Part shown: positions 12,756 to 19,797 of the stretch, piece after piece | Layout of the letters: the number at the start of each line of letters is the position of its first letter | Numbering within the stretch: position 1 is the stretch's first letter | Source: a virus | Virus record (IMG/VR): IMGVR_UViG_3300036830_000362 | Location: 1 to 21,186 of that record | Reading direction: 5' to 3' (one strand) | Length of the DNA stretch: 21,186 nt | Notes under the pieces: generated by a model | Seen by the model: the letters and a program-made list of their open reading frames with translations, nothing else | Database searches by the model: none | What the model was told of the DNA's origin: nothing | Translations under genes and position numbers: made by a program

Positions 12756-13307
12756 TCAGGCGATTTTGCGCTGTTCCTGGCGCCAGCGAGTCGTTCTGCT
12801 GGGACCGCGTTTTGCGTCGATCTTGCGGCCAGGGATCCGGCCTTCCGCTTTCGCCAGGGCCAGGCCCGCCTTGGTGCGCTCGGCGATCACGTTGCGCTCG
12901 AATTCTGCAAACACCGCGAGCATGCCGAACATTGCCTTGCCGGCCGTCGATCGCAAATCAAATCCGTCCTTCAAGCTCACGAAAGAAACCTTCGCGTCAT
13001 CCAGTTCGGCAATGAGATTGTGAAGATCCCGGACCGATCGACCGAAGCGATCGAGCCGCCACACGAGTACCGCGTCGACATCGCGCAGTCCTTTGGTGAC
13101 GTCCTGCATGAGTTTCAACAGTTGCGGCCGCTTCGTATTCTTTCCGCTTAAACGATCGACATATTCGGCCGAGATGGTGTGCTTGTTCGCCTTCGCCCAC
13201 TCGCGCAGCTCGCGGAGCTGGACCTCAGGGTTCTGCTCTTTGAGCAGAGATTCGGAGACCTGGCCACGTTGCGGCTTCGAGACTCGGGCATAGATCGCGA
13301 TTTTCAT
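12756..13307 (-). CDS. Serine recombinase (resolvase/invertase catalytic domain), short C-terminus
   Basis: From ATG 13307 the product is 183 residues. It opens MKIAIYARVSKPQRGQ, with the nucleophile Ser10 in the RVS motif. It continues with the usual VQLRELREWAKANKHTISAE and SGKNTKRPQLLKLM, then VLVWRLDRFGRSVRDL, which supplies Arg84, Asp86 and Arg87. The helix AVFAEFERNVIAERTKAGLA and the GRIPGRK hinge follow. After the hinge only about 20 basic residues remain (DAKRGPSRTTRWRQEQRKIA); the helix-turn-helix that resolvases normally carry there is absent, and I find none in the other frames nearby. The start forms TGATG with the secreted-protein gene upstream. It may invert or resolve DNA with help from a separate binding factor. 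No crossover site is proven. Confidence 0.85.
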   Translation of the reverse strand: MKIAIYARVSKPQRGQVSESLLKEQNPEVQLRELREWAKANKHTISAEYVDRLSGKNTKRPQLLKLMQDVTKGLRDVDAVLVWRLDRFGRSVRDLHNLIAELDDAKVSFVSLKDGFDLRSTAGKAMFGMLAVFAEFERNVIAERTKAGLALAKAEGRIPGRKIDAKRGPSRTTRWRQEQRKIA

Positions 13308-13669
13308 CAGCGCGATCTTACCTCGTAGCGGAAGCTGCAACCCTTTTTGAACGTCACCACGGCCTGGACCAGGCGCGAGTGCTTCCGATCGGGCTCGCCG
13401 TCGACCACGGGCGCTTCGACCTGGGCTTTCTCGCCGGCATCGATCTTGTCGATGCAGCTCCGGTCCCAGACGGCAACCGTGTACTGCTTGGGTTCGCAGG
13501 CGAAGAGGGCTTTGGCTGGGTTCCAGACTTTGCAAAGTCCGTCACCGCATTCGGAAGAGTAAGGGCAGGAGTCTTGCGGAAGAGGCGGATCGGCGAGGGC
13601 GGTGCCGATCGAGCGCGCGGAAAAGAAGCCGAGCACAAGTACAGCGAGGAATTTCAGGCGAAGACTCAT
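13307..13669 (-). CDS. Small exported cysteine-rich protein
   Basis: From ATG 13669 (GGAAG four bases upstream) the product is 120 residues and begins with a signal peptide (MSLRLKFLAVLVLGFFSARS, then IGTALA-DPP). The mature part is cysteine-rich: DSCPYSSECGDGLCKVWNP, FACEPKQYTV, DRSCIDKID and, near the end, KKGCSFRYEVRS, six to seven cysteines suited to disulphides. It lies in an operon of micro-genes. Its ATG overlaps the stop of the 33-residue gene (ATGA), and its own stop forms TGATG with the recombinase. No family is recognised. Export plus disulphides suggests action in the periplasm or outside, such as altering the host surface, but that is a guess. Confidence 0.7.
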   Translation of the reverse strand: MSLRLKFLAVLVLGFFSARSIGTALADPPLPQDSCPYSSECGDGLCKVWNPAKALFACEPKQYTVAVWDRSCIDKIDAGEKAQVEAPVVDGEPDRKHSRLVQAVVTFKKGCSFRYEVRSR

Positions 13670-16588: not shown

Positions 16589-16834
16589 TCATCGTGAACG
16601 TTTTTGCAGCTTCTTCTTGCGTTCCATCTGCGCTGCCAGCTTCTTCAGCTTCTTGGTGCCCTCATCGATCACGGCCTTGGTTTCGGCCGTCTTCTTTTCC
16701 AATTTGGCCCAGCGAGCCTGCACGGCCTTCCGCGCCGCTTCCGAGCGCTGTTCTTTCGTTAGATTCTTTGCTCGAGCCTGCCCGCCGGAACGGGCAATCC
16801 TAGCTTTGTATTCTTCGAGAGATTCGGGTGCCAT
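16589..16834 (-). CDS. Small basic helical protein, possible DNA-binding protein
   Basis: The 81-residue product contains ARSGGQARAKNLTKEQRSEA, then ARKAVQARWAKLEKK, a widespread short motif ('GG.aRA..L..e.R...A.kA..aRW'), and a long Lys-rich helix (EGTKKLKKLAAQMERKKKLQ). It is strongly basic and probably helical throughout. The motif family has no function that I know; nucleic-acid binding is plausible. The ATG at 16834 has no Shine-Dalgarno, and the predicted leftward -10 box ends six bases before it, so the mRNA may be leaderless. It is the first leftward gene opposite the early operon, the place where phages often keep a regulator. Confidence 0.65.
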   Translation of the reverse strand: MAPESLEEYKARIARSGGQARAKNLTKEQRSEAARKAVQARWAKLEKKTAETKAVIDEGTKKLKKLAAQMERKKKLQKRSR

Positions 16835-16840
16835 GCGGGG

Positions 16841-16869
16841 ACAATAACAAAAAACTACGTACTAAGCAA
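16841..16869 (-). promoter_or_regulatory. Candidate leftward promoter with an operator half-site in its spacer
   Basis: On the minus strand TTGCTT (16864-16869) and TATTGT (16841-16846) are separated by 17 bp, each matching four of six consensus bases. The half-site TACGTACTAAG (16856-16866) overlaps the -35 box and spacer. The start site would fall at or beside ATG 16834. Confidence 0.45.
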
Positions 16870-16877
16870 GAATTATC

Positions 16878-16906
16878 TTGACATACGTACTAAGTACGTA
16901 TAGATT
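16878..16906 (+). promoter_or_regulatory. Candidate rightward early promoter
   Basis: A perfect TTGACA -35 box (16878-16883) is followed by a 17-bp spacer and TAGATT (16901-16906; four of six). TATAGA at 16899 with a 15-bp spacer is an alternative. The early genes start at 16940 after GGAGGAG. The whole spacer is the palindrome described at 16884-16900. Confidence 0.65.
16884..16900. promoter_or_regulatory. 17-bp palindromic operator in the early promoter spacer
   Basis: TACGTACTAAGTACGTA is a perfect dyad with 8-bp arms and a single central base. It exactly fills the space between the -35 and -10 boxes of the rightward promoter. The left arm plus centre (TACGTACTAAG) recurs as a direct copy at 16856-16866, 28 bp away. 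This is the geometry of a dimeric repressor site, and binding would block RNA polymerase. The repressor is not identified. Confidence 0.7.
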
Positions 16907-16939
16907 GTATTCACGCTCGACGGAGGAGCGGAAAGCAAA

Positions 16940-17167
16940 ATGACGATCGAAGAAAAACTCGAAGCACTCACTCAAACGGTGGAGCTGTTGGCTGGAATGC
17001 AGAAAACCAACGAAGAACAGATCGCCAAACTCACGGGAAGCGTCTTCCAGTTGCTCGAACACGCCGAGCAGACGCAGGATGCAATCTCGAAGCTCGGCCA
17101 TAACTCGAACGTGATGTTCGACGCCTTGCAGAATCACGAAAGCCGCATCAGCACTCTGGAAGGTTAA
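16940..17167 (+). CDS. Small coiled-coil protein, first early gene
   Basis: The 75-residue product is almost entirely heptad-patterned: MTIEEKLEALTQTVELLAGM, then KTNEEQIAKLTGSVFQLLEH and AISKLGHNSNVMFDALQNHE. It is acidic and should form a coiled-coil dimer or trimer. GGAGGAG lies 11 bases before the ATG, and the gene follows the palindromic promoter. No family is recognised. Possible roles include an inhibitor or oligomerisation partner, but the sequence does not decide. Confidence 0.7.
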   Translation: MTIEEKLEALTQTVELLAGMQKTNEEQIAKLTGSVFQLLEHAEQTQDAISKLGHNSNVMFDALQNHESRISTLEG

Positions 17168-17428: not shown

Positions 17429-18163
17429 ATGGCAACGCAACCGATGAATTCCGCCGAAGTTATTCAGCCCTCCGACCTTCACCACATCGCGCTTCGCCAA
17501 CCGGAACCGATGCAACTTGCCATGTCCCGCGCTCCGGAGATCGTCCTGGCCGAAGCCGCGACGGCCGCCAAGGCGCTCCGCGAAGTGATCGAATCGAAGC
17601 CGACCAAATGCGTGATTAACGGCAAGACGTTTTTGCAGTTCGAGGACTGGCAGACGCTCGGCCGCTTCTACGGAGTCACCGTGGCTGCGCGGGAAACCAC
17701 GTACATCGAACAGGGCCGCGTGCGTGGGTACGAATGCCACGCCGAAGCGATCCGCGCCGATGGCCAGGTCATCTCCGCCGCGCAAGCCATGTGCCTGGAC
17801 GACGAATCGAAGTGGAGCGACAAGCCGCTGTTCCAGCTCCGCTCGATGGCGCAGACCCGCGCCCAGGCGAAAGCGCTCCGCAACGTTCTCGCGTGGGTTG
17901 TGGTCATGGCCGGATACGCGCCAACTCCCGCCGAGGAGATGGACGGCAAGACTAGCAACTCGATCGCTCCGCGGGGGCAGTACACGCCGATGCCGCAGGA
18001 TCGCGTCCGCAAGCTTTGCTTCGAGATCGCCGGATCGGCGAGCTTGCCCGAACTTCGCGCCCGCTATTTCTCCGCAGGGAACGAAGCCAAGAAGTTCAAC
18101 GACCGCCAGGCGCTCGACGCCTTCATCGCTGCCAAGGATGAGAGAAAGGCGAAGCTGCAATGA
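17429..18163 (+). CDS. Candidate single-strand annealing protein (recombinase partner of the exonuclease)
   Basis: The 244-residue product overlaps the following exonuclease gene as ATGA. Its core runs KCVINGKTFLQFEDWQTLGR (about 60-79), FYGVTVAARETTYIE, YECHAEAIRADGQVISAAQA, and then SMAQTRAQAKALRNVLAWVV (about 139-158) with MAGYAPTPAEEM. I have seen the 'FLQFEDWQTLGRFYG' and 'MAQTRA.AKALRN...WVV.LAG' pair in unannotated phage and actinobacterial proteins. A beta-rich core followed by a TRAxxxAL helix recalls Rad52/Erf-like annealing proteins, and phage exonucleases of this type are normally paired with one. The C-terminal 55 residues are a helical domain (DRVRKLCFEIAGSASLPELR). The function is inferred from context and loose pattern, not shown. 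Confidence 0.5.
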   Translation: MATQPMNSAEVIQPSDLHHIALRQPEPMQLAMSRAPEIVLAEAATAAKALREVIESKPTKCVINGKTFLQFEDWQTLGRFYGVTVAARETTYIEQGRVRGYECHAEAIRADGQVISAAQAMCLDDESKWSDKPLFQLRSMAQTRAQAKALRNVLAWVVVMAGYAPTPAEEMDGKTSNSIAPRGQYTPMPQDRVRKLCFEIAGSASLPELRARYFSAGNEAKKFNDRQALDAFIAAKDERKAKLQ

Positions 18164-18852
18164 CGACGCCTGGCCTTTACCTTGACGTGCAGCAGGGAAC
18201 TCCGGAGTGGCTGCAAGCTCGCTGCGGACTTCCCACTGCCTCCCGCGCCGCCGACATCATCGCGATGCTGAAAAGCGGCAAGGGCGAACGCTCGGAACGC
18301 CGCGACTATCGCGCCGAAGTGATCTGCGAGATCCTCACCGGGAACCCGTACCCTCGCCGGGTCACGCCGGAGATGCAGTGGGGCATCGACCACGAAGCCG
18401 ATGCCCGCGTGGCCTACGAACTCCAGTGCGGCGTGCTGGTCGATACCTGCGGGTTCGTGTTGCATCCGGAAGTGGATCGCTTCGGCGCTTCGCCGGACGG
18501 CCTGGTGGGCGACGATGGGCAGATTCAAATCAAGTGCCCGACGTCGGCCACGCATCTGGAATACTGGCGTTCTGGCGTCGTGCCGATCGAGCACATGCCG
18601 CAGATGCTGGCGGAGATGAGCTGCACCGGACGCGACTGGTGCGATTTCGTGAGCTACGATCCGCGGATGCCCGAGCACCTGCAATTGTTCGTGAAGCGCT
18701 TCGAGCGCAACGACCAGCACATCGCAATTCTCGAAAAGGAAGTGCGGCACTTCAACGCGGAGATCGACCAGGTCCTAGCGGGCCTGCCTGGGAAACCGCA
18801 AGCCATCGCCGAAGTGCTGGAATGGCCGAATGCAGACGAAACCGATTTTTAA
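18160..18852 (+). CDS. YqaJ / lambda-exonuclease family recombinase nuclease
   Basis: The 230-residue product has the ordered motifs of lambda-type exonucleases: QQGTPEWLQARCGLPTASRA (residues 11-30), EMQWGIDHEADARVAYE (71-87, with the helix Glu at 79), GASPDGLVGDDGQIQIKCP (109-127) and, further on, HMPQMLAEMSCTGRDWCDFV (145-164). Asp113 and Lys125 are the expected metal-site residues, but the acidic residue two before the lysine, normally Glu, is Gln123 (codon CAA at 18526-18528). The enzyme would resect double-stranded ends 5' to 3' and hand the strand to the annealing protein encoded just before it. About 230 residues is the family size. The start overlaps the previous stop as ATGA. The Gln may reduce activity. 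Confidence 0.85.
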   Translation: MTTPGLYLDVQQGTPEWLQARCGLPTASRAADIIAMLKSGKGERSERRDYRAEVICEILTGNPYPRRVTPEMQWGIDHEADARVAYELQCGVLVDTCGFVLHPEVDRFGASPDGLVGDDGQIQIKCPTSATHLEYWRSGVVPIEHMPQMLAEMSCTGRDWCDFVSYDPRMPEHLQLFVKRFERNDQHIAILEKEVRHFNAEIDQVLAGLPGKPQAIAEVLEWPNADETDF

Positions 18853-18955: not shown

Positions 18956-19441
18956 ATGTTTCGATCTGAAGCACAGCAGTGTCAGGCAATCCGCGTTCTG
19001 CTTTCTTCCCTTAATCTGCAACATCTGTGGACTGAAAAAGGGCCGACTCGCAAGGCGTGCGACTACCTTGAACGCTCACCGCTTTCGCATGGCGAACAGA
19101 TCATGCTGCGTTGCGCCTTCGATTTCTGGAACGGCGAAGGCAAGGTGCTGCTCTATCGCGATCTGTTGGGGACGCTCGACGCGGCTCGACTCGAAAGCGT
19201 TCTAACTCTCGCTTCAGCCGCAAGCGCCGGGATGGAAGCCGTGGATCAGTGGATGGTCGGCCAACAAATACGCGACCGCCAAGCCGCTGCCAATAACGAA
19301 CTACTGCTCGCGCTGGTAGAACTCACTTCGGCTGTGCAAGATGGCCTTCGCCGTCACGCTGCTGGCGATCCAAACGCAATCGCTTCCAATCTAATTTCCG
19401 CGACGCTCGATCAAGCACTGAAAGCGATCATCAAACATTGA
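18956..19441 (+). CDS. Early phage protein of unknown function with a 'FDFWNG' motif
   Basis: I start at ATG 18956 with AGGAG six bases upstream; the ATG two codons earlier touches the ribosome site. The 161-residue product holds LERSPLSHGEQIMLRCAFDF, then WNGEGKVLLYRDLLGTLDAA and RLESVLTLASAASAG. The 'LS..eq.mL..AFD.WNG.G' pattern is one I recall from uncharacterised proteins of high-GC bacteria and phages. The rest is helical with a Leu-rich region (NNELLLALVELTSAVQDGLR). There is no nuclease or kinase motif. Its stop overlaps the start of the HNH gene as TTGA. Confidence 0.7.
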   Translation: MFRSEAQQCQAIRVLLSSLNLQHLWTEKGPTRKACDYLERSPLSHGEQIMLRCAFDFWNGEGKVLLYRDLLGTLDAARLESVLTLASAASAGMEAVDQWMVGQQIRDRQAAANNELLLALVELTSAVQDGLRRHAAGDPNAIASNLISATLDQALKAIIKH

Positions 19442-19797
19442 TCCGCCGCCGCCCCATCCCGCGCACCGCCTACCACTGGCACCCGGAGCCGAAACCAGCC
19501 AGCCTGCGTTTCGAACTGCTCTGCAACGGAGCTGTGCGCCGTTACCCGGATGGAAGGGAAGTGTGCCAGGACAACGCCGCCGGATGGCGCGAGTACAAGC
19601 GCCGCGTACAAGTGATGGTGCAACGCCAGAGATACCGCTGCTGCCTCTGTAAACGCCGTTTAAGCGCGTCCGATGCCACGTTTGAACATCAGAGGCGCCG
19701 AGGCATGCACGCAGCCTTTAGAGACGACCGAATCGCGAAAGACGGGCAGGAGTGGAACGGGGCGGCGCACTGGGTGTGTAACCACGAGAAGGGCTAG
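19438..19797 (+). CDS. HNH-type endonuclease
   Basis: The 119-residue product begins at TTG 19438, overlapping the previous stop (TTGA). The C-terminal half carries a compact HNH/zinc motif: RYRCCLCKRRLSASDATFEH (65-84, the conserved EH at 83-84), HAAFRDDRIAKDG (91-103), then NGAAHWVCNHEKG (107-119), with Asn107 and the CN..KG ending typical of HNH proteins in which a CxxC pair helps bind zinc. The N-terminal 60 residues are basic and include PKPASLRFELLCNGAVRRYP. It could nick DNA in recombination or replication. It ends four bases into the convergent gene (shared CTAG). Confidence 0.75.
   Translation: MIRRRPIPRTAYHWHPEPKPASLRFELLCNGAVRRYPDGREVCQDNAAGWREYKRRVQVMVQRQRYRCCLCKRRLSASDATFEHQRRRGMHAAFRDDRIAKDGQEWNGAAHWVCNHEKG

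Follow-up and report, generated by a model that had tools for sequence, protein, structure and literature searches.

A predicted recombination gene pair and its neighbours

The window, that is, the whole 21,186-base stretch that was analysed (IMG/VR virus record IMGVR_UViG_3300036830_000362), carries two overlapping plus-strand genes. The upstream gene (17429..18163, +) encodes a 244-residue protein that is predicted, from its open reading frame, a fold model, fold searches and exchange with Erf, to be a single-strand annealing protein, and the downstream gene (18160..18852, +) encodes a 230-residue YqaJ/lambda-type exonuclease recognised by Pfam, PHROG and PDB matches. The initial annotation had described a 244-residue gene overlapping a lambda-type exonuclease gene by ATGA, and both observations were borne out. 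The overlap (18160..18163, +) consists of the exonuclease ATG at 18160 and the TGA stop codon of the annealing gene at 18161-18163, implying probable translational coupling. Since the 244-residue reading frame has more than 420 relatives in viral contigs and strong GC3 periodicity, which was found in the exonuclease gene alike, it is not attributable to chance. No SSB gene was found in the window, the record being a 21-kb fragment.

The head genes of the window (portal, major head protein and large terminase) all lie on the minus strand and are separated from the recombination module, which begins on the plus strand near 16940, by a serine recombinase of the invertase/resolvase type (12756-13535, -, and 16592-16940). 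Beyond the exonuclease, 19438-19797 (+) encodes a 119-residue protein with CCLC, H and CN motifs and the look of an HNH-type endonuclease (PHROG HNH match, E = 0.1), counterparts of which lie downstream in three related loci (L007, L014 and L054).

The exonuclease matched Pfam YqaJ (2.9e-21) and, in the PDB, both 3syy (1.6e-53), which we take to be Laribacter LHK-Exo, and lambda exonuclease (1avq, 1.9e-22); judged by sequence, it is a member of the lambda-type exonuclease family. The catalytic residues D113 and K125 are conserved and the position of the ExK glutamate is occupied by Gln123 (IQIKCP; codons 123-125, 18526-18534, +). The window has glutamine here, as do 12 of 13 close relatives and also L109 and L110, and the glutamate was present in L010, L032, L107 and L111. 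Because the other catalytic residues are conserved, the Gln123 form may be a natural variant that remains active, or else an altered nuclease.

The survey of co-occurrence with YqaJ exonucleases that had been proposed with the annotation placed an exonuclease of this type directly or next downstream of the annealing gene in 14 of 78 non-redundant loci. A second, unlike PD-(D/E)XK exonuclease was directly or next downstream in 15 more of the 78; its cluster comprises 17 proteins, two of which lie further away, and by exclusion it is to this cluster that the matches to the exonuclease families phrog_298 and phrog_466 belong. Proteins of this second group are about 200 residues long and are encoded directly downstream in L017, L018, L019, L054, L060 and others, outside the clade of the window. 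Other neighbours among the 78 loci were Gp157 or Mu Gam-like genes (about five), NinB (two) and a Holliday junction resolvase match (one or two). Of the 36 genomic loci described below, roughly half had a recognisable gene for the second exonuclease or for Gp157, and single SSB and NinB genes were also present. Phage annealing genes are usually accompanied by Gp157, Gam, SSB and YqaJ (PMC8093625), and the finding that the new family pairs again and again with two dissimilar nuclease groups, and with Gp157, supports the annealing reading.

Sequence family and predicted fold

The absence of any nameable match to RecT, Beta, Erf or Sak proteins, remarked on in the initial annotation, extended to the family, since none of 14 diverse members matched the Pfam ERF, Rad52, SSAP_Sak or RecT models at E = 1. 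The 244-residue protein itself had no match in Pfam or NCBIfam even at E = 10, and none among PDB sequences in single-sequence or profile searches. Its sole catalogue entry was phrog_19042 (3e-18), labelled "unknown function", which was also matched by the other 13 of 13 members of a broader alignment, A3, and was not named in the literature searched. One family member matched a RecT-like PHROG, at E = 0.16 only, and three A3 members weakly matched a Mu GemA model (6e-4).

The first scan of viral contigs recovered 15 loci, 14 of which had the same core, and a profile scan recovered 423 relatives, from which 79 loci were kept. A tblastn search of the phage record collection with the annealing protein gave no match, and none was obtained when genome contigs were scanned with the close alignment A2. 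With A3, 36 loci were found in genome contigs, in records named Chloroflexota, Bryobacterales (Acidobacteriota), Pseudomonadota, Myxococcales, Patescibacteria, Verrucomicrobia, the Planctomycete-like Singulisphaera and one Methanophagales archaeon. One relative, L298, was located in an archaeal assembly of Methanophagales (ANME-1), on a contig of 1.19 Mb, and may be part of a provirus or the product of a binning error. Distant relatives with a core identity of 32-40%, annotated as hypothetical, were found on plasmids of Thiothrix and Leptospira; because these (L022 and L023 in Thiothrix, L024-L026 in Leptospira) directly precede Gp157 or PD-(D/E)XK nuclease genes, their position suggests that the plasmids are phages or phage-derived.

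The AlphaFold2 model of the 244-residue protein, built with 72 sequences, had a mean pLDDT of 89.9, mostly above 90 in residues 36-160. These residues form the predicted RAD52-like annealing core (17534..17908, +), the part exchanged for Erf in the locus L016, and comprise helix alpha1 (36-56), a beta1-beta2 hairpin (61-68, with strands 61-63 and 66-68; 17609..17632, +), alpha2 (71-80), a three-stranded beta3-beta5 sheet (83-95, 98-109 and 114-123) and alpha3 (134-160; 17828..17908, +). The order of elements, as seen in a model rather than a solved structure, is that of the common core of RAD52 and RecT, namely beta1-beta2, alpha2, beta3-beta5 and alpha3 (PMC9772228).

In a Foldseek search of the PDB, ranks 1-11 were all human RAD52 (probability 0.99-1.00, best E 3.4e-3), no match reached E = 0.001, and the TM-scores to RAD52 chains were 0.39-0.65 when target-normalised and 0.25-0.32 when query-normalised. 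Against BFVD there were 65 matches at E <= 1e-3; among the 50 matches listed, all 13 that were functionally named were RecT, Erf, Sak3, annealing or recombination proteins, and one Sak3 protein matched at E = 6.2e-6. A Pfam-recognised Erf, that of L016, was modelled in the same way as a yardstick, and its topology and tail were those of the window protein. Its best match to an annealing protein in the PDB was Mgm101 (E = 0.1), so that by the Foldseek PDB test the window protein is more RAD52-like than a true Erf. The comparison with annealing folds for which the initial annotation had called thus returned a related fold rather than an unrelated one, RAD52-like by AlphaFold2 and by Foldseek against both collections, and the core of the 244-residue protein is predicted to have the RAD52 annealase fold.

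The most conserved element of the family was alpha3 (mean 0.87), which was delimited by the model and by conservation. It contains the TRAxAxALRN motif (TRAQAKALRN, residues 143-152, in the window protein) and, among its basic residues, R144 and K148 are invariant and R151 is conserved at 93%. Across 72 viral members the invariant residues include C122, E126, W129, S139, M140, Q142, T143, R144, K148 and E169. The TRAxAxALRN helix had been singled out as the Rad52-like part of the protein; its identity with alpha3 of the predicted core supports this view, as alpha3 carries inner-strand DNA contacts in RAD52 (T148, K152, R153 and R156) and in LiRecT (K206, R210, N211 and S214) (PMC9772228). The spacing of R144 and K148 equals that of LiRecT K206 and R210, a reading of the spacing and not of a superposition. 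By likeness to these two helices, alpha3 of the 244-residue protein would contact DNA.

Core exchange with Erf and the C-terminal tail

In L016, the N-terminal residues are those of the new family and the tail is 73% identical, and between them lies an Erf core (Pfam ERF 2.6e-9, phrog_155 3.7e-19); the exonuclease encoded downstream is 63% identical. The DNA of L016 and the window is 73.9% identical across a 739-base segment that begins with the tail, at position 1115, and extends through the exonuclease gene, and on the upstream side homology of L016 to L002 and L014 (75-79%) ends at position 586, approximately codon 13. The flanks are thus homologous, the cores have no DNA homology, and the exchange is limited to the core.

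All 20 Erf-type reading frames recovered as relatives of L016 were near the same exonuclease family, one of them (L106) being on the same contig as L016. In a tree of 33 exonucleases, labelled by partner as 19 Erf and 14 new family, the label changed five times, and at least four of these changes are forced by well-supported branches. The mixed sister pairs were L110 (Erf) with L007 (new family), supported at 98/93, and L114 (Erf) with L041 (new family), at 100/100. Phages have therefore repeatedly swapped the new-family protein and Erf in place, before the same exonuclease family. This core exchange is the strongest evidence for the annealing reading, and it would also fit another role in handling ssDNA that both proteins have.

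The two types were also mutually exclusive. ERF, RecT, Rad52 and SSAP_Sak (Sak3) were found in none of 41 viral records of the new family, a count that has no baseline rate beside it and comes from records of 32-66 kb that are perhaps incomplete, and the new family was found in none of 20 Erf or Rad52 records. The positive controls of these searches were recovered in 14 of 14 and 13 of 13 cases. Every record searched held the new family or the Erf/Rad52 type, never both.

The C-terminal tail (residues 185-244; 17981..18160, +) is predicted by AlphaFold2 to consist of three helices (190-201, 206-222 and 226-243). A profile of the last 75 or so residues, for which the only input was 13 new-family proteins paired with a YqaJ-type exonuclease, matched 14 of 19 Erf proteins that have the same exonuclease family (1e-30 to 9e-4) and the new-family protein of L041 (1e-12). 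It gave no match to any of the 54 new-family members whose partner is unknown or of another kind, which indicates that the tail goes with the exonuclease and not with the core. Four of the five Erf proteins without the tail are in the most distant exonuclease clade (L119, L121, L122 and L124). A Fisher test of tail against exonuclease gave p = 8e-15, but this figure should not be read as a true probability, given that the sequences share ancestry and that the tail model was itself seeded by 13 of the 14 positives; what counts as independent in the association is L041 and the 14 Erf tails. Some members pairing with the second exonuclease have another type of tail, which also occurs in L020, L021 and L046.

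The C-terminal three-helix bundle of Red-beta binds lambda exonuclease and SSB (PMC8303780), and by this analogy the tail is proposed to be an exonuclease-docking module. When the tail was compared by profile with the C-terminal domain of Red-beta, no relation in sequence emerged, and the resemblance is therefore one of architecture alone.

Probable identity of the protein and its proposed role

The 244-residue protein is very probably a single-strand annealing protein that forms a Red-like pair with the downstream exonuclease. The initial annotation had put the gene forward as an annealing-protein candidate, and it is supported in this by the predicted RAD52-like fold, the exchange with Erf, the absence of another annealing gene from the records and the pairing with nucleases and Gp157.

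A different assignment, as a highly diverged Erf, Sak (Rad52) or Sak3 and hence a distant branch of a named family, draws on the fold class, genomic position and tail that the protein has in common with Erf, and on an alpha3 motif that by eye resembles those of Sak3 and Sak. It is, however, opposed by the failure of the Pfam ERF, Rad52 and SSAP_Sak models to match any of the 14 diverse members, by the missing DNA homology of the L016 core between homologous flanks, and by profile-profile comparison with hhalign, in which the core had a probability of at most 0.6% against Erf (19 proteins), Sak and Sak3; we regard it as unlikely. In control searches the Pfam Rad52/Sak and Sak3 models did find ul36 Sak and p2 Sak3. 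The accepted families Erf, Sak and Sak3 were equally unlike each other in the same hhalign test, so that the negative result is weak evidence either way, and the new family has much the same standing as they do: a separate sequence family in one fold class. Our verdict is that these proteins form a new sequence family of predicted RAD52-fold annealing proteins, apart from Erf, Rad52/Sak and Sak3 by sequence.

Annealing by the new-family proteins is predicted only, and Gp157, Mu Gam-like and NinB genes are found in the same neighbourhoods, as might be expected if the protein were a non-annealing accessory of the exonuclease, such as an end-protection protein, an ssDNA-binding protein or a recombination mediator. 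The predicted core is nevertheless that of RAD52 and not an OB or coiled-coil fold, Erf, itself an annealing family, takes its place one for one, and no further annealing gene was recognised in the records among the four families searched for, which makes an accessory role quite improbable. Phage genomes are mosaic and other loci near the module vary too, so the Erf exchange might be random mosaicism that is uninformative on function. We give this very little credence, since the exchange in L016 is confined to the core, with homologous start, tail and exonuclease on either side, the partner label changes at least four times on the exonuclease tree, and the records searched hold one type or the other.

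Compared with known systems, the new family resembles Erf (PF04404, phrog_155) in its predicted alpha-hairpin-alpha-sheet-alpha order, its slot before the same exonuclease and, often, its tail, but its core has no detectable sequence similarity, and the Erf motifs SYxxRYxL and GEDDNDGN are absent, the new family having SMAQTRA and TPAEE. It resembles RAD52 and phage Sak (PF04098) in the predicted common core, the basic alpha3 and the best PDB matches to human RAD52, but there is no sequence match and it is a short phage protein with its own tail. A Sak3 protein (PF06378) is among the BFVD fold matches, whereas no profile match was found. As in lambda Red (Exo and Red-beta), a lambda-type exonuclease is accompanied by an annealing protein ending in a small three-helix domain; unlike Red-beta, the new family is not RecT/Red-beta (PF03837) and its tail has no detectable sequence relation. 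Close structural resemblance to annealases has been reported for 3,143 proteins that lack annotation (PMC11783212). That set may include the new-family proteins, and the structural idea therefore has some precedent.

In the proposed two-gene Red-like recombination module, the exonuclease would resect 5' ends and the annealing protein, held on the exonuclease by its C-terminal tail as in the Red-beta analogy, would load onto the new 3' overhang and pair it with complementary DNA in phage recombination and repair. In this scheme, alpha3 with R144, K148 and R151 would lie at the base of an ssDNA groove, with the beta1-beta2 hairpin opposite. We infer oligomerisation, ssDNA binding, annealing and docking by the tail from the evidence above.

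On balance, we lean towards the view that this is an additional RAD52-fold annealase family, carried by phages and prophages from a wide range of bacterial phyla and from at least one archaeal genome record. In this view the cores are exchangeable cassettes, flanked by a start that stays fixed and by a C-terminal adaptor that is portable and matches the cognate exonuclease, so that the adaptor and not the core would determine which exonuclease is used. Because the natural swaps replace the core and leave tail and exonuclease unchanged, they offer a way to test a long-standing question, namely whether the tail determines which exonuclease is compatible, irrespective of the core. Recombineering is driven by annealing proteins and is limited in its reach by host range (PMC8093625, PMC10711431), which makes the relatives from Acidobacteriota, Chloroflexota and other phyla candidate tools. 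The assignment gives a likely function to more than 420 viral proteins that lie outside Pfam and NCBIfam and are labelled unknown in PHROGs, and thereby to the recombination modules of many phages of little-studied bacteria.
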